21,679 bases of DNA from a virus. A program made the translations under genes and the position numbers. Below, piece by piece: positions 6,271 through 20,031 of the stretch (position 1 is its first letter; the number at the start of each line of letters is the position of its first letter). Location: the IMG/VR virus record IMGVR_UViG_3300036853_000374, positions 1 to 21,679 of that record; one strand, given 5' to 3'. Below the pieces are notes generated by a model. It worked only from the letters and a program-made list of their open reading frames with translations. It made no database searches and was not told the DNA's origin.

Positions 6271-6449
6271 GGGGCCACCTGCAGGTACGCGACCGTCGAT
6301 CGATCGACGTAGACGTCGCCCGGCATCTTCACCGGCGCCTGGCCCGCTTTCAGCGCGGACGCGTCCTTGAGGATCAGCCACCGCGGCCGAGAGGCCACCA
6401 GCACGCCCTCGATCGCCTCCGATTCGGTGTGCGTGAAATTCACGAGCAC
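6267..6449 (-). CDS. Small hypothetical protein between terminase and portal
   Basis: About 60 residues from a GTG at 6449, reading VLVNFTHTESEAIEGVLVAS at the start and ending DVYVDRSTVAYLQVAP. The stop overlaps the portal start (GTGA). The pattern of short beta strands (VNFTHTESEAIEGVL, RPRWLILKDA, VYVDRSTVAYLQV) resembles the very small beta-barrel proteins often found just upstream of portal genes in HK97-like phages, but I cannot assign a family. The start is uncertain because the frame continues upstream to 6887 and no clear ribosome site is visible. 6450-6559, upstream of it, holds no other convincing gene. Confidence 0.5.
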   Translation of the reverse strand: MLVNFTHTESEAIEGVLVASRPRWLILKDASALKAGQAPVKMPGDVYVDRSTVAYLQVAP

Positions 6450-6559
6450 CCGGTGCGAGAGACACGGCGGCCGCCAGAACAAGAGCCAGCGCACACAGGT
6501 TGCCCACAATCCAGATCGAGTGTGGGGCGTCGGGCGTGGGGCCCGTGATTTGTCGATGT

Positions 6560-6748
6560 TTATTCGGCGCGCCGGGTGAGCTCGCGCCGGATGATCTCGG
6601 GGATCGTGACGTCCTTGCCTTCCGTGCGCGTGAGCCGCTGCGCCCGCCGCGCGTACGCGTCGTATTGCTTCAGCGGGAGCGTGACGCCGACTTCGATCGA
6701 GGTGTCGTCGTCGTCGACGCGGGGCCGGCCGGGATGGGTCCGCTTCAT
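6560..6748 (-). CDS. Ribbon-helix-helix-like small DNA-binding protein
   Basis: A 62-residue basic protein starting at the ATG at 6748, which overlaps the upstream stop (ATGA). After an acidic N-terminus (VDDDDTS) it has a beta strand SIEVGVTLPL, then a helix KQYDAYARRAQRLTRTEG, then a second helix VTIPEIIRRELTRR. That is the strand-helix-helix order of CopG/Arc-type ribbon-helix-helix repressors, including the '(I/V)PEIIRREL' ending. Such proteins act as dimers that insert the paired strands in the major groove. Placed inside the packaging genes, it could autoregulate late transcription or serve a packaging role. The fold call is by pattern only. Confidence 0.55.
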   Translation of the reverse strand: MKRTHPGRPRVDDDDTSIEVGVTLPLKQYDAYARRAQRLTRTEGKDVTIPEIIRRELTRRAE

Positions 6749-10519: not shown

Positions 10520-10752
10520 GCGAGCCCGACGCCCTCGAACTCGAACTCCGGTACGAATGGTGGCTGAATCACGGGCGGCACTGTCGGCCGTACGGCGACG
10601 ACGGCGAGATGCAGTGCTGTGCGCTGGACTTCAAGCGGATGCCACTCGACGAGCTGCGCGAGCGGGTCCACGACCTCCGGCTGCAGCGCATCAAGGAAGC
10701 ACTGGCGCGCGAAGTAGACGTGCCGTTGCCCTGGCCGGAGGCCTTCGTTTGA
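10516..10752 (+). CDS. Hypothetical protein encoded directly upstream of Ku
   Basis: A 78-residue protein from a GTG at 10516 with GGAAGGA close upstream. It overlaps the preceding stop (GTGA), and its TGA shares one base with the Ku ATG (TGATG). The N-terminal part has HCRPYGDDGEMQCCALDF with three Cys and one His that could hold a metal. The C-terminal part is one long amphipathic helix (LDELRERVHDLRLQRIKEAL). I do not recognise a family. Its invariable coupling to Ku here suggests either a partner of Ku or simply cotranscription. Confidence 0.6.
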   Translation: MSEPDALELELRYEWWLNHGRHCRPYGDDGEMQCCALDFKRMPLDELRERVHDLRLQRIKEALAREVDVPLPWPEAFV

Positions 10753-11624
10753 TGGCGAGCCCCCGCGCGATCTGGAAAGGCACCCTCCAACTCTCTCTGG
10801 TCCAGGTCCCGATCAAGATGTATGCGGCCACTGAAGCCAGCGCGACGATCAGCTTCCATCAAATCCACGACGCGCCCTGCCAGGCCCGCGTGACGCAGAA
10901 GAAGTGGTGTGCGAGCTGCGAACGCGACGTCCTCAGCGATGAGATCGTGAAGGGGTATGAAGTCGCCCCGGGCCAGTACGTCCTCGTCAACGCCGACGAA
11001 CTGGACGCGGTGGCCCCCGACTCGACGCGCGTGATTGCCCTGACGCAGTTCGCGCCGGCCGCATCGTTGCCGTGGCGGGCGATCGACCGGGCCTACTTCC
11101 TGGTGCCCGATGGGCCCGACGGCGGACCCGCCCAAGATGCGTACGCCGTGCTCGTGGACGCGATCGCGGGATCCGTGGGCATCGGCACGCTGGCGATCTA
11201 CGGGCGGGAGTATTTAGTGGCGGTGGCCTCAGGGGATCGCTGCTTGAGTCTATATACCCTGCATCACGCGGCCGAATGGCGATCGGCGCCGTATGGGGCG
11301 GATCGGCGGGCGTTGGTGTCGGCGGCGTTGCGGGGCGCGACGGTCGCCGCGAAATTGGTGGTCGAGGCCTGGACCCAACCCTTGCGCCTGGACGATTTCA
11401 CCGATACGTATCAAGCGGACTTACGCCGCTTGATCGACGCGAAGATCGCGGGGCAGGAGATCGTGCAGCCGGCCGTGGTCGAAACAGGTCGACCGTTGCC
11501 CATCTTGGAGGCGTTGACGCAGAGTCTTGCGTTGGTCGCCGGAAAGAAACCACAGGTCAAAGCCCGGCGCCGCTCGAGCACCGCCCTGCCCGCGGCCCCC
11601 GCGTCCCGAAAGAAGGCGGGGTGA
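10752..11624 (+). CDS. ku: Bacterial-type Ku protein (NHEJ end-binding), phage-encoded
   Basis: A 290-residue Ku homologue of full bacterial length. The opening RAIWKGTLQLSLVQVPIKMY matches the Ku core start (RAIWKGxIxFGLVxVPVxLY). It is followed by SFHQIHDAPC, a KKWCASCERDV element (C53, C56) and EIVKGYEVAPGQYVLVNADE, which corresponds to the family's 'DIVKGYExxxGxYVxLxxEEL'. Then come DRAYFLVPDG and LYTLHHAAEW, at the positions where other Ku proteins have the beta-barrel and arch. The short basic C-terminal tail (KKPQVKARRRSSTALPAAP) fits the DNA-retention extension of bacterial Ku. Ku homodimers thread onto double-strand DNA ends and recruit LigD. No ligase lies in this window, so the protein would need the host's. 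Mycobacteriophages Omega and Corndog also encode Ku. Confidence 0.93.
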   Translation: MASPRAIWKGTLQLSLVQVPIKMYAATEASATISFHQIHDAPCQARVTQKKWCASCERDVLSDEIVKGYEVAPGQYVLVNADELDAVAPDSTRVIALTQFAPAASLPWRAIDRAYFLVPDGPDGGPAQDAYAVLVDAIAGSVGIGTLAIYGREYLVAVASGDRCLSLYTLHHAAEWRSAPYGADRRALVSAALRGATVAAKLVVEAWTQPLRLDDFTDTYQADLRRLIDAKIAGQEIVQPAVVETGRPLPILEALTQSLALVAGKKPQVKARRRSSTALPAAPASRKKAG

Positions 11625-13481: not shown

Positions 13482-13976
13482 TCATATGGTCCGTTCCAAC
13501 GGTGTCGTGCCGTGGACAAACAGGGGATGCTTCGGCGAGCCGTCCTGATTGCGCCCCAGACAGCGCGTGTGTTCGAGCGACAAAATCCAACCCGCGAGCG
13601 ACGCGCCGTAGCAGTCGAGACGGGCGCGCCCCCACGCCGCGACGATGAGGTCCGCCTTATGCACCATCCACTTGAGCGTGTCCTGATTCAAGGGGCCATA
13701 GATCTCCTCGGCGCCCTGCTTGGCCGCGGCCCACATCACCTTCGGTTTCGTTGCCCGATACGCGTAGATGTTCCCCATCAACAGCCAGTCGAAGCCCCAC
13801 GCGCGCGCGAAGCCGACGCAGCGGCGGATCGTCGGGTCATCCTGTGAGCCGTCCGCCGTGGACGGATTCAGCCCGACGAAGAGCACAAAGCGCTCGCCCA
13901 TCGACAACCGACGCGACAGGGAATAGCGATACACCCCGTCCTCGCTGATGTCGGCCGCGGCGTCCAAGTACTTCAT
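13482..13976 (-). CDS. DUF1643 family protein
   Basis: A 164-residue protein with a clear DUF1643 signature. After RYSLSRRL it has FVLFVGLNPSTADGSQDDPT (residues 30-49), then IRRCVGFARAWGFD, IYAYRATKPKVMWAA, and a late ADLIVAAWG and CLGRNQDGSPKHPLFV. The function of the family is not established. The conserved LNPS-A-DD-T-RR block suggests an enzyme. The ATG at 13976 overlaps the stop of the second gene-end repeat (TGATG on the minus strand), so it is embedded in the coupled operon. The open frame to 14045 adds non-family sequence. DUF1643 is usually a chromosomal accessory gene, but phage copies are known. Confidence 0.88.
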   Translation of the reverse strand: MKYLDAAADISEDGVYRYSLSRRLSMGERFVLFVGLNPSTADGSQDDPTIRRCVGFARAWGFDWLLMGNIYAYRATKPKVMWAAAKQGAEEIYGPLNQDTLKWMVHKADLIVAAWGRARLDCYGASLAGWILSLEHTRCLGRNQDGSPKHPLFVHGTTPLERTI

Positions 13977-14014
13977 CAGAGCTGCTCCAAATCCCGTCGT
14001 CGAATCCGCCAGCC
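13976..14014 (-). repeat. 39-bp gene-end repeat, copy 2
   Basis: Second unit of the three. It differs from copy 3 at four positions, all in the first nine bases. It encodes GWRIRRRDLEQL-stop on the minus strand, and its TGA shares a base with the DUF1643 ATG. Confidence 0.8.
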
Positions 14015-14149
14015 TGGACTCAGGACCGCGTCTCGGCCAGTCCACCGCGGCAGGTCGCGCTTGGGGATCGCGAAGGATTTCCGGTTAGTCGAGTGTGTGC
14101 GTGACGCGTTTCGTTTTGACTTCCCGGAAGTCGTAGATCGCCACCGCAT
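13976..14149 (-). CDS. Possible 57-residue ORF ending in the gene-end repeat
   Basis: An ATG at 14149 opens a frame that overlaps the end of the next upstream gene by 65 bp, then continues through KSFAIPKRDLPRWTGRDAVL and ends with the repeat-encoded GWRIRRRDLEQL. The second half looks protein-like, including a second IPKRDL motif that resembles the repeat's IRRRDL, as if the tail had been duplicated. The first 25 residues are Ser/Arg-rich and probably not coding. It may be a remnant of a helix-turn-helix gene whose 5' part was replaced. Confidence 0.3.
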   Translation of the reverse strand: MRWRSTTSGKSKRNASRTHSTNRKSFAIPKRDLPRWTGRDAVLSPGWRIRRRDLEQL

Positions 14150-14514: not shown

Positions 14515-14553
14515 TTACAGCCCCTCCAAATCCCGTCGTCGAATCCGCCAGCC
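14515..14553 (-). repeat. 39-bp gene-end repeat, copy 3 (parent copy)
   Basis: Third unit. Here it is the natural 3' end of a complete two-domain helix-turn-helix gene and encodes GWRIRRRDLEGL-stop, where RIRRRDL is the expected last strand of the domain. This makes it the probable source of copies 1 and 2. Confidence 0.8.
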
Positions 14554-15069
14554 CCGATCCCGGATCGCCGGCACGCGCTGGTCGGCAATCGCCCGCCGGA
14601 GATACGCCTGTGAGAGCCGTTTGATCGCGGCCGCCTCCGCCACGGTCACGTACTGCGCCGCGCGTTCGTCCGGACTGAGGGTCTCCGCCACCGTCTCCGA
14701 CACTGGCGGCGATGGCGGGGACTGGTGCAGGGCGTGGAGGTAGCGCAAGGCTTCCGTGAAGAACCGGTGGATCGCGTCGTCGGCCGGCCGCGCGAGGGCC
14801 TCCACAGGGGCTGTATGGGGCCTGCCGTGGCCGTTCCCGGTCCCGACCGCCGGTAAAACGAACGGCGACGGGGCTGGACGGCGCTCAGATGCGAGTCTGG
14901 CCACGTCGTCAGGGTTGTAGACGGCCACCGGCGGCGTGCCCTCCTGGCGGCGGAGACGCTGTTCCAACTTCTTGGCCCGCCCGAGCCGTTCGACGGTCCG
15001 TTTCGAGCAGCCGATCCGCGCGGCGGTTTCGTCCACGGTCCACCAGGCCGACAGGTCAGTCTCCGCCAT
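14515..15069 (-). CDS. Protein with two helix-turn-helix domains
   Basis: 184 residues from the ATG at 15069 (AGG upstream); a GTG at 15114 is an alternative. The N-terminal domain (residues 9-60) has WWTVDETAARIGCSKRTVER and a final VAVYNPDDVARL, a MerR/HTH_17-type layout. The C-terminal domain (residues 139-184) has YVTVAEAAAIKRLSQAYLRR, VPAIRDRGWRIRRRDLEGL and the same fold type. The linker is Pro/Ala-rich. Two HTH_17-like domains in one chain suggest binding of two half-sites, as excisionase-like or partition regulators do. The 3' end carries repeat copy 3. Confidence 0.75.
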   Translation of the reverse strand: MAETDLSAWWTVDETAARIGCSKRTVERLGRAKKLEQRLRRQEGTPPVAVYNPDDVARLASERRPAPSPFVLPAVGTGNGHGRPHTAPVEALARPADDAIHRFFTEALRYLHALHQSPPSPPVSETVAETLSPDERAAQYVTVAEAAAIKRLSQAYLRRAIADQRVPAIRDRGWRIRRRDLEGL

Positions 15070-15120
15070 GCCTGCCCGCCATGCCGCCAGATGGCGGCCA
15101 GTTCCACGTGCCACGAGTCA

Positions 15121-15477
15121 TCATTGATGGCGCCCACTGAGTTCTTTCAGGAGAGCCCGCAGGAGTTCCGCCGCGTTGTTGACGGCCGCCATCGCCTCGG
15201 CGGATCCGCCGGCGTCGGGATGGCGGGTCCGCGTGAGCGCGCGCTGCCCCTGGCGAATGAGTTCGTGCGCAGCGATCACCACGTCCTCGGTCACCGACGC
15301 GCGGGCCCGGTGCGCCTCGCGCACGCGCTGCCGCCGCACGTCTTCCTCGATCACGAATTGCTTCAGGGGTTCGCGGAGTTCGACCGGCGGCGTCAAGAGC
15401 CAGGCGACGTATTGGTCCGGTAACTCCGTCAACAACATGCCCTTGTGCTTCCCAAACGGCATCCGCACGTGTGACAT
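15121..15477 (-). CDS. DUF3820 plus J-domain-like fusion protein
   Basis: 118 residues with a strong ribosome site (AGGAGG, six bases before the ATG at 15477). Residues 5-29 (RMPFGKHKGMLLTELPDQYV then AWLL) are a DUF3820 domain ('MPFGKYKG..L..LP..YL.WL'), which is often seen with exonucleases. Residues 65-112 resemble the end of a DnaJ J-domain, with the catalytic-type motif TRTRHPDAGGSAEAMAAVNN (HPD at 86-88) and a following helix. In J proteins HPD stimulates DnaK. Here it could recruit host DnaK for phage replication, as lambda P and DnaJ do, but that is inference. The stop is next to the downstream helix-turn-helix gene. Confidence 0.75.
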   Translation of the reverse strand: MSHVRMPFGKHKGMLLTELPDQYVAWLLTPPVELREPLKQFVIEEDVRRQRVREAHRARASVTEDVVIAAHELIRQGQRALTRTRHPDAGGSAEAMAAVNNAAELLRALLKELSGRHQ

Positions 15478-15577: not shown

Positions 15578-16657
15578 TTACGACGCGGCTTCGCGCCGCT
15601 CCATCGCGATCGCGCGGATACAGTCCTCCTCAGAACGACAGCGCGGGGCATGCGGACAGCGGCCATACACCCGGTTGCGAATCGTGCGCGCTTCGTCCAG
15701 TTCCCGACGACTCAACCGGCCGTCGTCCGCGTCGCGTGGCGACCCCCGCGCGGTGCGCTCAGCCGATCGAAGCACGCGCTTCCAAAACGCGAACTCGGTC
15801 TTATCGGGGATCGCCTGCGCGTCCGGAATCGCGGCGAGCTCGTGGGCGTAGCGCGCGAACAACTGCGCGTCGAGGTCCGCGTCCGTCTCGCCGGGCTGCC
15901 GCGCGAGCTTCCGCCGTTCCTCGAGGTGAAACAGCATCGGCACGTGCACGCGGCCGTCGCACCAGGCGTGCGTGGTGCCGAACCACCGACACGGGGGGGG
16001 TGCCGCTCGGGTCGGCGGGCTTTCGGCGGCCGCCGGCGGTGTTGTTGTTGTGGTACGTGAGTTGTTGTACGTAGCGCGCGCGCGCGGGTCTAGGGGAAGG
16101 GGAGGCGCCGGATCACAAGGATCACAAGTACCGATCACAAGTTCGGGCTCACTTGTGTAACTTGTGATCCGGGTGATCGTGCGTTTTACCCAACTTGTGA
16201 TCCTTGTGATCACATGTTGACGCCCTACATGTGATCGAGGACGCGCCGGCGGGTTGCTCGCTAATTGGACGGACGGCGGGTCCGCGAAGAGATCGCCGGT
16301 CGTGTCGTCCGGTCGGGCGCGACGCGGAGGCACCGCCCGGAGATCCGCCCGCAGCGGGAGGGGCACGTCCGTCAGCGGCGCCGCGCCGACCACATGGGCG
16401 AGCGTGTAGCGGGCCCGTCGCCCTTGCCCGCCGTCCACGACGCGCACTTCCCCGATCTCCACCAGCACCGGGAGCCAGGCCCACACCGTCCGCCGATCGA
16501 GATGCGCCAGCGTGGCGAGGGCGCCCATGCTAATCAGGGGCGTCGTGGTCTCCCCGTCCGGAATTAAACGCGCGATCGCCGCGAGCAGAGCGCGGGCCAC
16601 ATCAGTCACCTTCGGATGGGTACAGGTTTCGACGTACTCGAGTGCCGCGCGACTCAC
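15578..16657 (-). CDS. Putative replication initiator with winged-helix N-terminus
   Basis: 359 residues from a GTG at 16657. Residues about 15-85 look like a winged helix-turn-helix (LISMGALATLAHLDRRTVWA, then VLVEIGEVRVVDG, GRRARYTL). Residues 90-235 are a low-complexity Pro/Arg/Thr linker. The C-terminal part is helical and ends with a Cys cluster (CPHAPRCRSEEDC; C334, C340, C346) that could bind zinc. The iterons at 16111-16211 fall in the linker (residues about 149-183). Initiator proteins such as lambda O also have an N-terminal DNA-binding domain, a linker containing the origin iterons, and a C-terminal partner-binding domain. No helicase or loader is visible beside it, so it would use the host's. 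The initiator role is inferred from this architecture. Confidence 0.6.
   Translation of the reverse strand: MSRAALEYVETCTHPKVTDVARALLAAIARLIPDGETTTPLISMGALATLAHLDRRTVWAWLPVLVEIGEVRVVDGGQGRRARYTLAHVVGAAPLTDVPLPLRADLRAVPPRRARPDDTTGDLFADPPSVQLASNPPARPRSHVGRQHVITRITSWVKRTITRITSYTSEPELVIGTCDPCDPAPPLPLDPRARATYNNSRTTTTTPPAAAESPPTRAAPPPCRWFGTTHAWCDGRVHVPMLFHLEERRKLARQPGETDADLDAQLFARYAHELAAIPDAQAIPDKTEFAFWKRVLRSAERTARGSPRDADDGRLSRRELDEARTIRNRVYGRCPHAPRCRSEEDCIRAIAMERREAAS
16111..16211 (+). repeat. Inverted iteron array inside the initiator gene (candidate origin)
   Basis: The 9-mer GATCACAAG occurs at 16111-16119, 16120-16128 and 16133-16141. Its complement CTTGTGATC occurs at 16161-16169, 16194-16202 and 16203-16211, with degenerate copies at 16152-16160 (CTTGTGTAA) and at 16208-16216 and 16228-16236 (CATG in place of CTTG/CAAG). 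The outer tandem pairs form a perfect 18-bp inverted repeat (16111-16128 against 16194-16211). This is the size and spacing of phage/plasmid iterons, and the location inside the initiator gene is like lambda ori in gene O. Confidence 0.75.
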
Positions 16658-19325: not shown

Positions 19326-19355
19326 ACTATAGTGCGATGTCCACTACGTTGTCCA
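19326..19355 (-). promoter_or_regulatory. Sigma-70-type promoter of the XRE gene, near-leaderless
   Basis: On the minus strand, TGGACA (positions 19355-19350) and TATAGT (19331-19326) match the -35 and -10 consensus at five of six positions each, spaced 18 bases. Transcription would start about 19319-19320, three or four bases before the ATG at 19316, with no Shine-Dalgarno between. Confidence 0.55.
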
Positions 19356-19359
19356 CAAC
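19338..19359. promoter_or_regulatory. Operator-like repeats over the promoter
   Basis: TGTCCAC occurs twice, at 19338-19344 and 19350-19356, twelve bases apart. The second lies in an inverted repeat, GTTGT-CC-ACAAC (19348-19359). They cover the -35 box, so a bound regulator would block or shape transcription. Confidence 0.5.
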
Positions 19360-19422
19360 AAATTGCCGCAATCCGCAAAGTATTGCATGGCCGGATGTTG
19401 GGGGGCCAGACTTGTTAGAGCG

Positions 19423-20031
19423 GTGACGTATGGCCAGCGCTTTCGGGAACTCCGGCGGCATCTCTGGACAGCGAAGGGCAAGACGGTCCTGGCGCTCGCC
19501 GAGCGGCTCGAGTCGAAGTACGCCGCCACGATCTACAACATCGAACGGCAGTGGCGCGTCCCGTTGTTGCCAACGCTCCTGAGACACGCGGACGCGCTCG
19601 GCTGCCAGCCCTGGGATCTGCTGATCAATGTCGAGACCGAATACGATCTCGTCCGACGCCTGGCCACGCTCCGCCCGGCGGACGCCGAGCGTCGGCTCCG
19701 CGCGCTGGTGCGGCGTTACACGGAATGGACCGACCGTGCGCCAAAGTCGGACACGTCGCGGAAGGGTCGAGCGGGTTCCGCAGGGAAACGCGATGGCGCT
19801 GCCCTTGCTCTAAGGGACGATGCTGACCAAGGTGATCCCGTTCCCCGCGACTCGCGTCCAGCGTACCGCCGCGCGCGTGCTGACCTTGAGCGCCTCACGC
19901 GCGACGCTGAACAACAAGCCGCCCAGTTGGCCCGATCGCCCGCTGCCCCTGGACTCCCTGGGGAACATGCTGCAGCGCCTCGCGATCAAGCGGCCGGCCG
20001 CAGTGCTCGTGCTCGAAAGTCTCGTCGCTGA
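19423..20031 (+). CDS. XRE family regulator, 3' end uncertain
   Basis: A GTG at 19423 begins VTYGQRFRELRRHLWTAKGK. Alternative starts in frame are an ATG at 19387 and a TTG at 19363. Residues 1-70 form a Cro/CI-type domain: LALAERLESKYAATIYNIER, then WRVPLLPTLLRHADALGCQP and WDLL. It is divergent from the other XRE gene, so the pair forms a switch. The frame stays open to 20031, but it then overlaps the next gene by 212 bp in another frame. The last clearly coding part is near 19740 (RRYTEWTDRA). Another frame ends at 19813, seven bases before the next ATG, so a frameshift or a different true end is possible. Confidence 0.6.
   Translation: MTYGQRFRELRRHLWTAKGKTVLALAERLESKYAATIYNIERQWRVPLLPTLLRHADALGCQPWDLLINVETEYDLVRRLATLRPADAERRLRALVRRYTEWTDRAPKSDTSRKGRAGSAGKRDGAALALRDDADQGDPVPRDSRPAYRRARADLERLTRDAEQQAAQLARSPAAPGLPGEHAAAPRDQAAGRSARARKSRR

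Follow-up and report, generated by a model that had tools for sequence, protein, structure and literature searches.

Positions 16033-16236 of the IMG/VR virus record IMGVR_UViG_3300036853_000374, which we analysed over its entire 21,679 bp (hereafter the window), very probably serve a temperate tailed phage as its replication origin, which lies in the linker of the phage's own initiator gene. The repeats of this stretch had already prompted the proposal of an origin whose iterons lie within the initiator gene, on the plan of lambda O/ori but with an unrelated protein; homologous genes, and the helicase-loader or DnaA_N context in which they occur, now support that proposal. Visible in the sequence are the repeats and where they lie, conservation at the DNA and not the protein level, a low-GC tract, a predicted winged helix, and a loader gene or DnaA domain in relatives. 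Most likely, the repeats are read by the protein whose gene holds them.

Inverted iterons in the linker of a candidate initiator gene

The candidate initiator gene (15578..16657, minus strand) encodes 359 amino acids from a GTG start, and is assigned by its open reading frame (ORF), six homologues and weak matches to PHROG 6643. It is built from an N-terminal winged helix, a low-complexity linker holding the origin candidate, and a C-terminal domain with a Cys tail. As originally described, the repeats fall in the linker: the whole array spans 16111..16236, inside the ORF. An exact-match search agrees with the earlier count of six perfect copies of the 9-mer GATCACAAG, three per orientation, plus degenerate copies. 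Perfect copies on the plus strand lie at 16111..16119, 16120..16128 and 16133..16141, the last with a half-site AACTTGTG at 16136-16143 (minus); those on the minus strand lie at 16161..16169 and 16194..16202, with plus-strand half-sites AACTTGTG at 16159-16166 and 16192-16199, respectively, and at 16203..16211. This last copy overlaps a degenerate, one-mismatch copy GATCACATG at 16208..16216 (plus; half-site AACATGTG at 16211-16218, minus), yielding a palindrome-like CTTGTGATCACATGTT; a second one-mismatch GATCACATG lies at 16228..16236 (minus). The perfect inverted repeat reported before is present, and its length is 19 bp instead of the 18 first given (16111-16129 against 16193-16211, 100% complementary). 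No further perfect copy of GATCACAAG occurs in the record outside the array.

The array exceeds what chance or codon choice would produce. With up to one mismatch allowed, GATCACAAG has 14 matches, whereas dinucleotide shuffles gave 3.3 +/- 1.9 (at most 9); and 3,000 synonymous-codon shuffles of the initiator gene, which leave the encoded protein unchanged, contained a mean of 0.17 perfect copies and a maximum of two, against the six observed. In a motif-blind version of the synonymous test, scoring repeated 8-mers, two of 200 shuffles reached the observed value for the window gene, and none of 200 did for any of the six homologues or for lambda O, taken as a positive control. The window 9-mers occupy three frame and orientation combinations of the ORF, encoding ITS, LVI and CDPCD.

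Base composition also changes at the array. Of all 100-bp stretches in the record, the one with the lowest nearest-neighbour stability falls inside it (GC 48%, versus 67%); the weakest 100-bp duplex likewise falls in the array in the L040 record, and ranks fourth in the L016 record (homologues are introduced below). GC content at third codon positions (GC3) is 0.49 in the window array and 0.80 in the remainder of the gene; across array and tract it drops from 0.80-0.86 to 0.46-0.62 in all seven family members, as it does in lambda O (0.55 to 0.39).

The N-terminal winged helix anticipated from the sequence is borne out by structure prediction. An AlphaFold2 (AF2) model of the first 114 residues, with a mean predicted local distance difference test score (pLDDT) of 80, shows helices followed by two wing strands; the predicted DNA-binding domain comprises residues 1-90 (16388..16657, minus strand), with residues 55-67 as candidate recognition helix. 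The full-length model was poor (pLDDT 45) and was left out of fold searches. Foldseek matched the N-terminal model to generic winged helices in the PDB (TubR, Fur, MarR) and, among viral models, to phage helix-turn-helix and O-type replication proteins, among them the O replication protein of phage Min27 (E=7e-5); the predicted likeness to lambda O-type initiators is one of fold class only. Four of six family members match PHROG 6643, "replication initiation protein", weakly at the N-terminus (lowest E=6e-4); the window protein itself scores E=0.028, and the likeness is confined to the first ~90 residues. The C-terminal Cys cluster was also found, as CPHAPRCRSEEDC, and the C-termini of the window and L067 proteins share a Cys-containing tail, CPHxPxC...DC.

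Homologous genes and their iterons

The six homologous genes that turned up (L016, L040, L062, L067, L068 and L069) all come from contigs of uncultivated phages. A search for the tandem iteron pattern led to L016 and L040, alignment of their downstream (DnaC) gene to L062, and profile scans to the remaining three. The tandem 18-mer pattern gave 50 loci, most of which were set aside as A+T-rich, single-orientation and resembling coding repeats; a genome match, L053 (Anaerobiospirillum), was a chance match in A+T-rich intergenic DNA. Scanning viral contigs by protein only, with the window protein as query, gave no relatives; nor did tblastn searches of phage and plasmid collections (no named phage or plasmid) or a scan of genome contigs, and sequence searches identified no relative with a solved structure. 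Over residues 1-112, identity to the window protein is 75% for L040, 69% for L016, 64% for L062, 56% for L067 and 49% for L068; L069 is 52% identical over its N-terminal alignment.

The origin proposal had held that homologues should keep the repeats as DNA and not as amino-acid sequence, and L040, L016 and L062 do so: each retains the exact 9-mer while the linker protein diverges and the reading frames of the 9-mer differ. L040 has 12 perfect copies and L016 has ten, in both orientations and at the same position in the gene; across the complete window, L016 and L040 records, all 28 perfect copies fall within this one gene. L062 carries five copies of ACTTGTGATCACAAGT, each consisting of two facing 9-mers with a common GATC, i.e. 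five palindromic pairs. Between the window and L062 the linkers are only 19% identical, against 59% for the winged helix-turn-helix domains.

The other three homologues have iterons of other kinds at this point in the gene, exact or near-exact in each case: four copies of AACCTGTGCAGATCGTTCAYAGGTT in L067, repeats of AACGTCGGCAACTTCTGCCGACGTT in L068, and four copies of CAACGTGTGGCGATCTGTCACACGTTG in L069. The iterons of these three, as well as those of L062, passed the synonymous test. A half-site AACNTGTG (N = T, C or G) recurs in three of the four iteron types, including those of L067 and L069; the gap between facing half-sites is 2 bp in L062 and 9 bp in L067 and L069.

Comparing the two ends of the protein suggests which part reads the repeats. 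The C-terminal domain of the window protein has its nearest counterpart in L067 (61%), whose iterons differ, and is only 38% identical to that of L062, whose iterons are the same; at the N-terminus the order is reversed (L067 56%, L062 64%). Such pairing of N-terminus with iteron is as expected if the N-terminus reads the repeats, in a comparison of few members; L040 and L016 show nearly no such preference (57 vs 58% and 54 vs 51%). A link between Arg55 and the GATCACAAG class was dropped, as L069 shares the residue yet has a different iteron.

GATC is central in three of the four iteron types of the family. It is also strongly over-represented across the window (1-21679), with 253 copies, or 11.7/kb against ~3/kb expected from base composition; given this abundance throughout the record, we set aside any meaning for the GATC core of the three iteron types.

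Unwinding, helicase loading and alternative functions

Beside the array lies a (CG)n run (16074..16085), a feature of all seven family members, and beyond it a candidate DNA-unwinding tract (16033..16073) of G-poor YAC/ACA repeats, reading TACGTACAACAACTCACGTACCACAACAACAACACC... on the gene strand. A low-GC tract adjoins the arrays in at least five members, and in five it is of the G-poor YAC/AC type, exemplified by GGTACTACTACTTAAAGAACTACTACTACC in L040, ACGTACCACCACTTATAAGAACTACCACCACC in L067 and TACGTACAACAACTCACGTACCACAACAACAACACC in the window. In L040, L016, L062 and L067 the related tracts also contain CTTAAAGAA, CTTTAAAGAA or CTTATAAGAA, and four relatives have a clear TTAAAGAA/TTATAAGAA tract, which is weaker in the window. 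In L068 two CG runs flank a TAGTAG/AGAAG tract, and L069 has an A+T-richer stretch on the array side of its CG run. These tracts would supply the easily melted DNA that adjoins the iterons in a lambda-plan origin.

The genes next to the initiator in relatives point to helicase loading. A DnaC-type helicase loader directly follows the initiator in L016 (PHROG 50, E=3e-47) and L040 (E=1e-51), and L062 has a homologue of this gene downstream (62% identity). In L068 (4980-6200) and L069 (5001-6203) the initiator itself, with winged helix and iteron linker ahead, ends in DnaA domain I (DnaA_N, PF11638; E=2e-10 and E=4e-6, respectively), the domain by which E. coli DnaA contacts the replicative helicase DnaB (PMC5448010); no DnaC-type loader gene was seen directly downstream of these two initiators. 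L067 resembles the window in having neither DnaC-type loader nor DnaA domain I.

From this arrangement we infer the steps of binding, opening, helicase loading and firing. The N-terminal winged helix, as dimers or arrays, would bind AACNTGTG-type half-sites in two facing arrays, the half-site in the window being AACTTGTG(ATC), visible there as GATCACAAG; the resulting nucleoprotein complex would strain and open the adjoining low-GC tract at 16033-16073; and the C-terminal part would bring the host replicative helicase, directly in the window phage, together with the DnaC-type loader in L016, L040 and L062, and via DnaA domain I in L068 and L069. Early transcription, starting from the promoter region near 19.3 kb, would run through the origin, and theta replication of the lambda type would follow. 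A promoter-like site in that region (19326..19355, minus strand; one found by consensus scan against 0.2 expected) is upstream of the leftward early genes leading into the initiator gene, and a transcript from this consensus match would traverse the origin.

Several observations weigh against an origin at this site. The candidate tract of the window is the weakest of the five, being only moderately A+T-rich and without the TTAAAGAA core of its relatives, and the 100 bp past the array are 70% GC. Cumulative GC skew in three records has no clear switch at the site; no DnaC-type gene was recognised in the window; the L068 iterons match AACNTGTG poorly; and only seven family members came to light, the window included.

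The repeats could instead be operators through which the protein regulates early transcription from within its own gene, by roadblock or autoregulation. The nearest solved folds are winged helices of the Fur/MarR/TubR type, and palindromic half-sites such as AACTTGTGATCACAAGTT in L062 look operator-like; however, the window has no perfect copies outside the array, including near 19326-19423 in the promoter region, and both the 6-12 sites inside a coding linker, with their conserved (CG)n run and low-GC tract, and the DnaC-type gene or DnaA_N C-termini of relatives point to replication. We consider operators improbable. A partition (centromere-like) or plasmid-maintenance site, as distinct from a replication start, is very unlikely: its best argument is that TubR, a centromere-binding winged helix, is the top PDB fold match, with a weak E=0.003, but an integrase gene lies in the neighbourhood, family matches for the genes scanned included no ParA/TubZ-like gene, and DnaC loaders and DnaA domain I belong to initiation. 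That selection at the protein level for an amino-acid repeat, ITRITS, explains the DNA repeats is scarcely credible, even though several copies share an ITS/ITR reading and many other viral contigs have a tandem 18-mer in one orientation that looks like a coding repeat, because the copies fall in several frames and both orientations of the ORF, synonymous shuffles lose them, L062 keeps perfect 9-mers despite its divergent linker, and L067-L069 swap both repeat and protein at the same spot.

Read as an origin, the site parallels lambda, in which inverted-repeat iterons within gene O are followed by a 40-bp A+T-rich region (PMC5043065). Shared with lambda O/ori are an initiator with an N-terminal DNA-binding domain, inverted iterons in mid-gene followed by a low-GC tract, the GC3 dip, and repeats in excess of synonymous shuffles; where a helicase-loader gene lies immediately downstream it overlaps the initiator stop in lambda, L040 and L062. 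In contrast, we detected no sequence similarity to lambda O (BLASTP E=19; hhalign probability 0.2%), and the Pfam matches did not include the lambda-O family. The repeats are unrelated too, with facing and tandem half-site arrays here and four 18-bp iterons in lambda. As to the loader, it is of DnaC type in some members, others have DnaA domain I in its place, and the window has no recognised one. The window system thus appears to work like lambda O/ori while standing, by sequence, outside the lambda O family. Iteron function in Stx phages has been probed by altering the iterons while keeping the O protein unchanged (PMC7466680). Iteron plasmid origins of the RepE, RepA and pi type similarly place arrays of short initiator-binding repeats by an unwinding tract and use a winged-helix initiator, but no plasmid record searched held a relative of the window protein, which had neither a Pfam match to the plasmid Rep families (Rep_3/RepA) nor a plasmid match. 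The window protein would accordingly represent a new initiator family on a known plan.

Family evolution and the phage record

To a broader reading we give even odds as a whole: that this is a previously undescribed phage initiator family evolving by independent swapping of its repeats and its C-terminus. Iterons would change with the N-terminal winged helix (AACTTGTG, AACCTGTG, AACGTGTG and AACGTCGG types) within the translated linker, and the C-terminus would alternate, separately, among three means of obtaining the helicase: a DnaC-type loader encoded by its own gene, DnaA domain I fused to the initiator, and a Cys-tailed end without a loader gene, this last type possibly with an HPD-containing DUF3820 protein as chaperone partner.

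That protein is encoded by the next gene in the window (15121..15477, minus strand), with a DUF3820-type (QSregVF_b) N-terminus (Pfam PF12843, E=1e-7) and an HPD-containing C-terminus. It stands where L016, L040 and L062 have the DnaC loader gene, and the same gene follows the L068 initiator (6285-6668, 69% identity). By eye, its C-terminus, HPDAGGS...NNAAELL, resembles part of a J-domain; no profile or PDB match was obtained for this reading. A role as chaperone or helicase-loading partner is possible.

The recurrence of the lambda plan without detectable relation to lambda O suggests that coupling of initiator and origin is favoured in mosaic phages, because they then travel as a unit. In the seven members, which make up a natural series, winged helix and target DNA appear to have changed in concert, in steps down to one half-site base (AACTTGTG, AACCTGTG, AACGTGTG); swaps would therefore be a direct test of initiator specificity. 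How helicase loading is rewired is a second testable question, posed by the window phage, with no recognised loader gene, and by the members with a DnaA domain.

Genes for terminase, portal, protease and major head protein show the window record to be a phage contig, which also encodes an integrase and a repressor-like protein; no tRNA was found as an attachment-site marker. In the early region, a DUF1643 protein is encoded at 13482-14045 (minus strand; Pfam E=2e-34). An HTH_17 excisionase-like protein is encoded at 14515-15114 (minus strand), and in the related records such a gene again lies on the downstream side of the initiator, as seen by tblastn for L016 and L040, by Pfam for L067 and L068 and by eye for L062 and L069. 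Finally, a Ku-like DNA end-binding protein is encoded at 10557-11624 (plus strand; Pfam Ku E=2e-32, PHROG 4873), with its domain starting at ~10764, by a gene that faces the opposite way to its neighbours.
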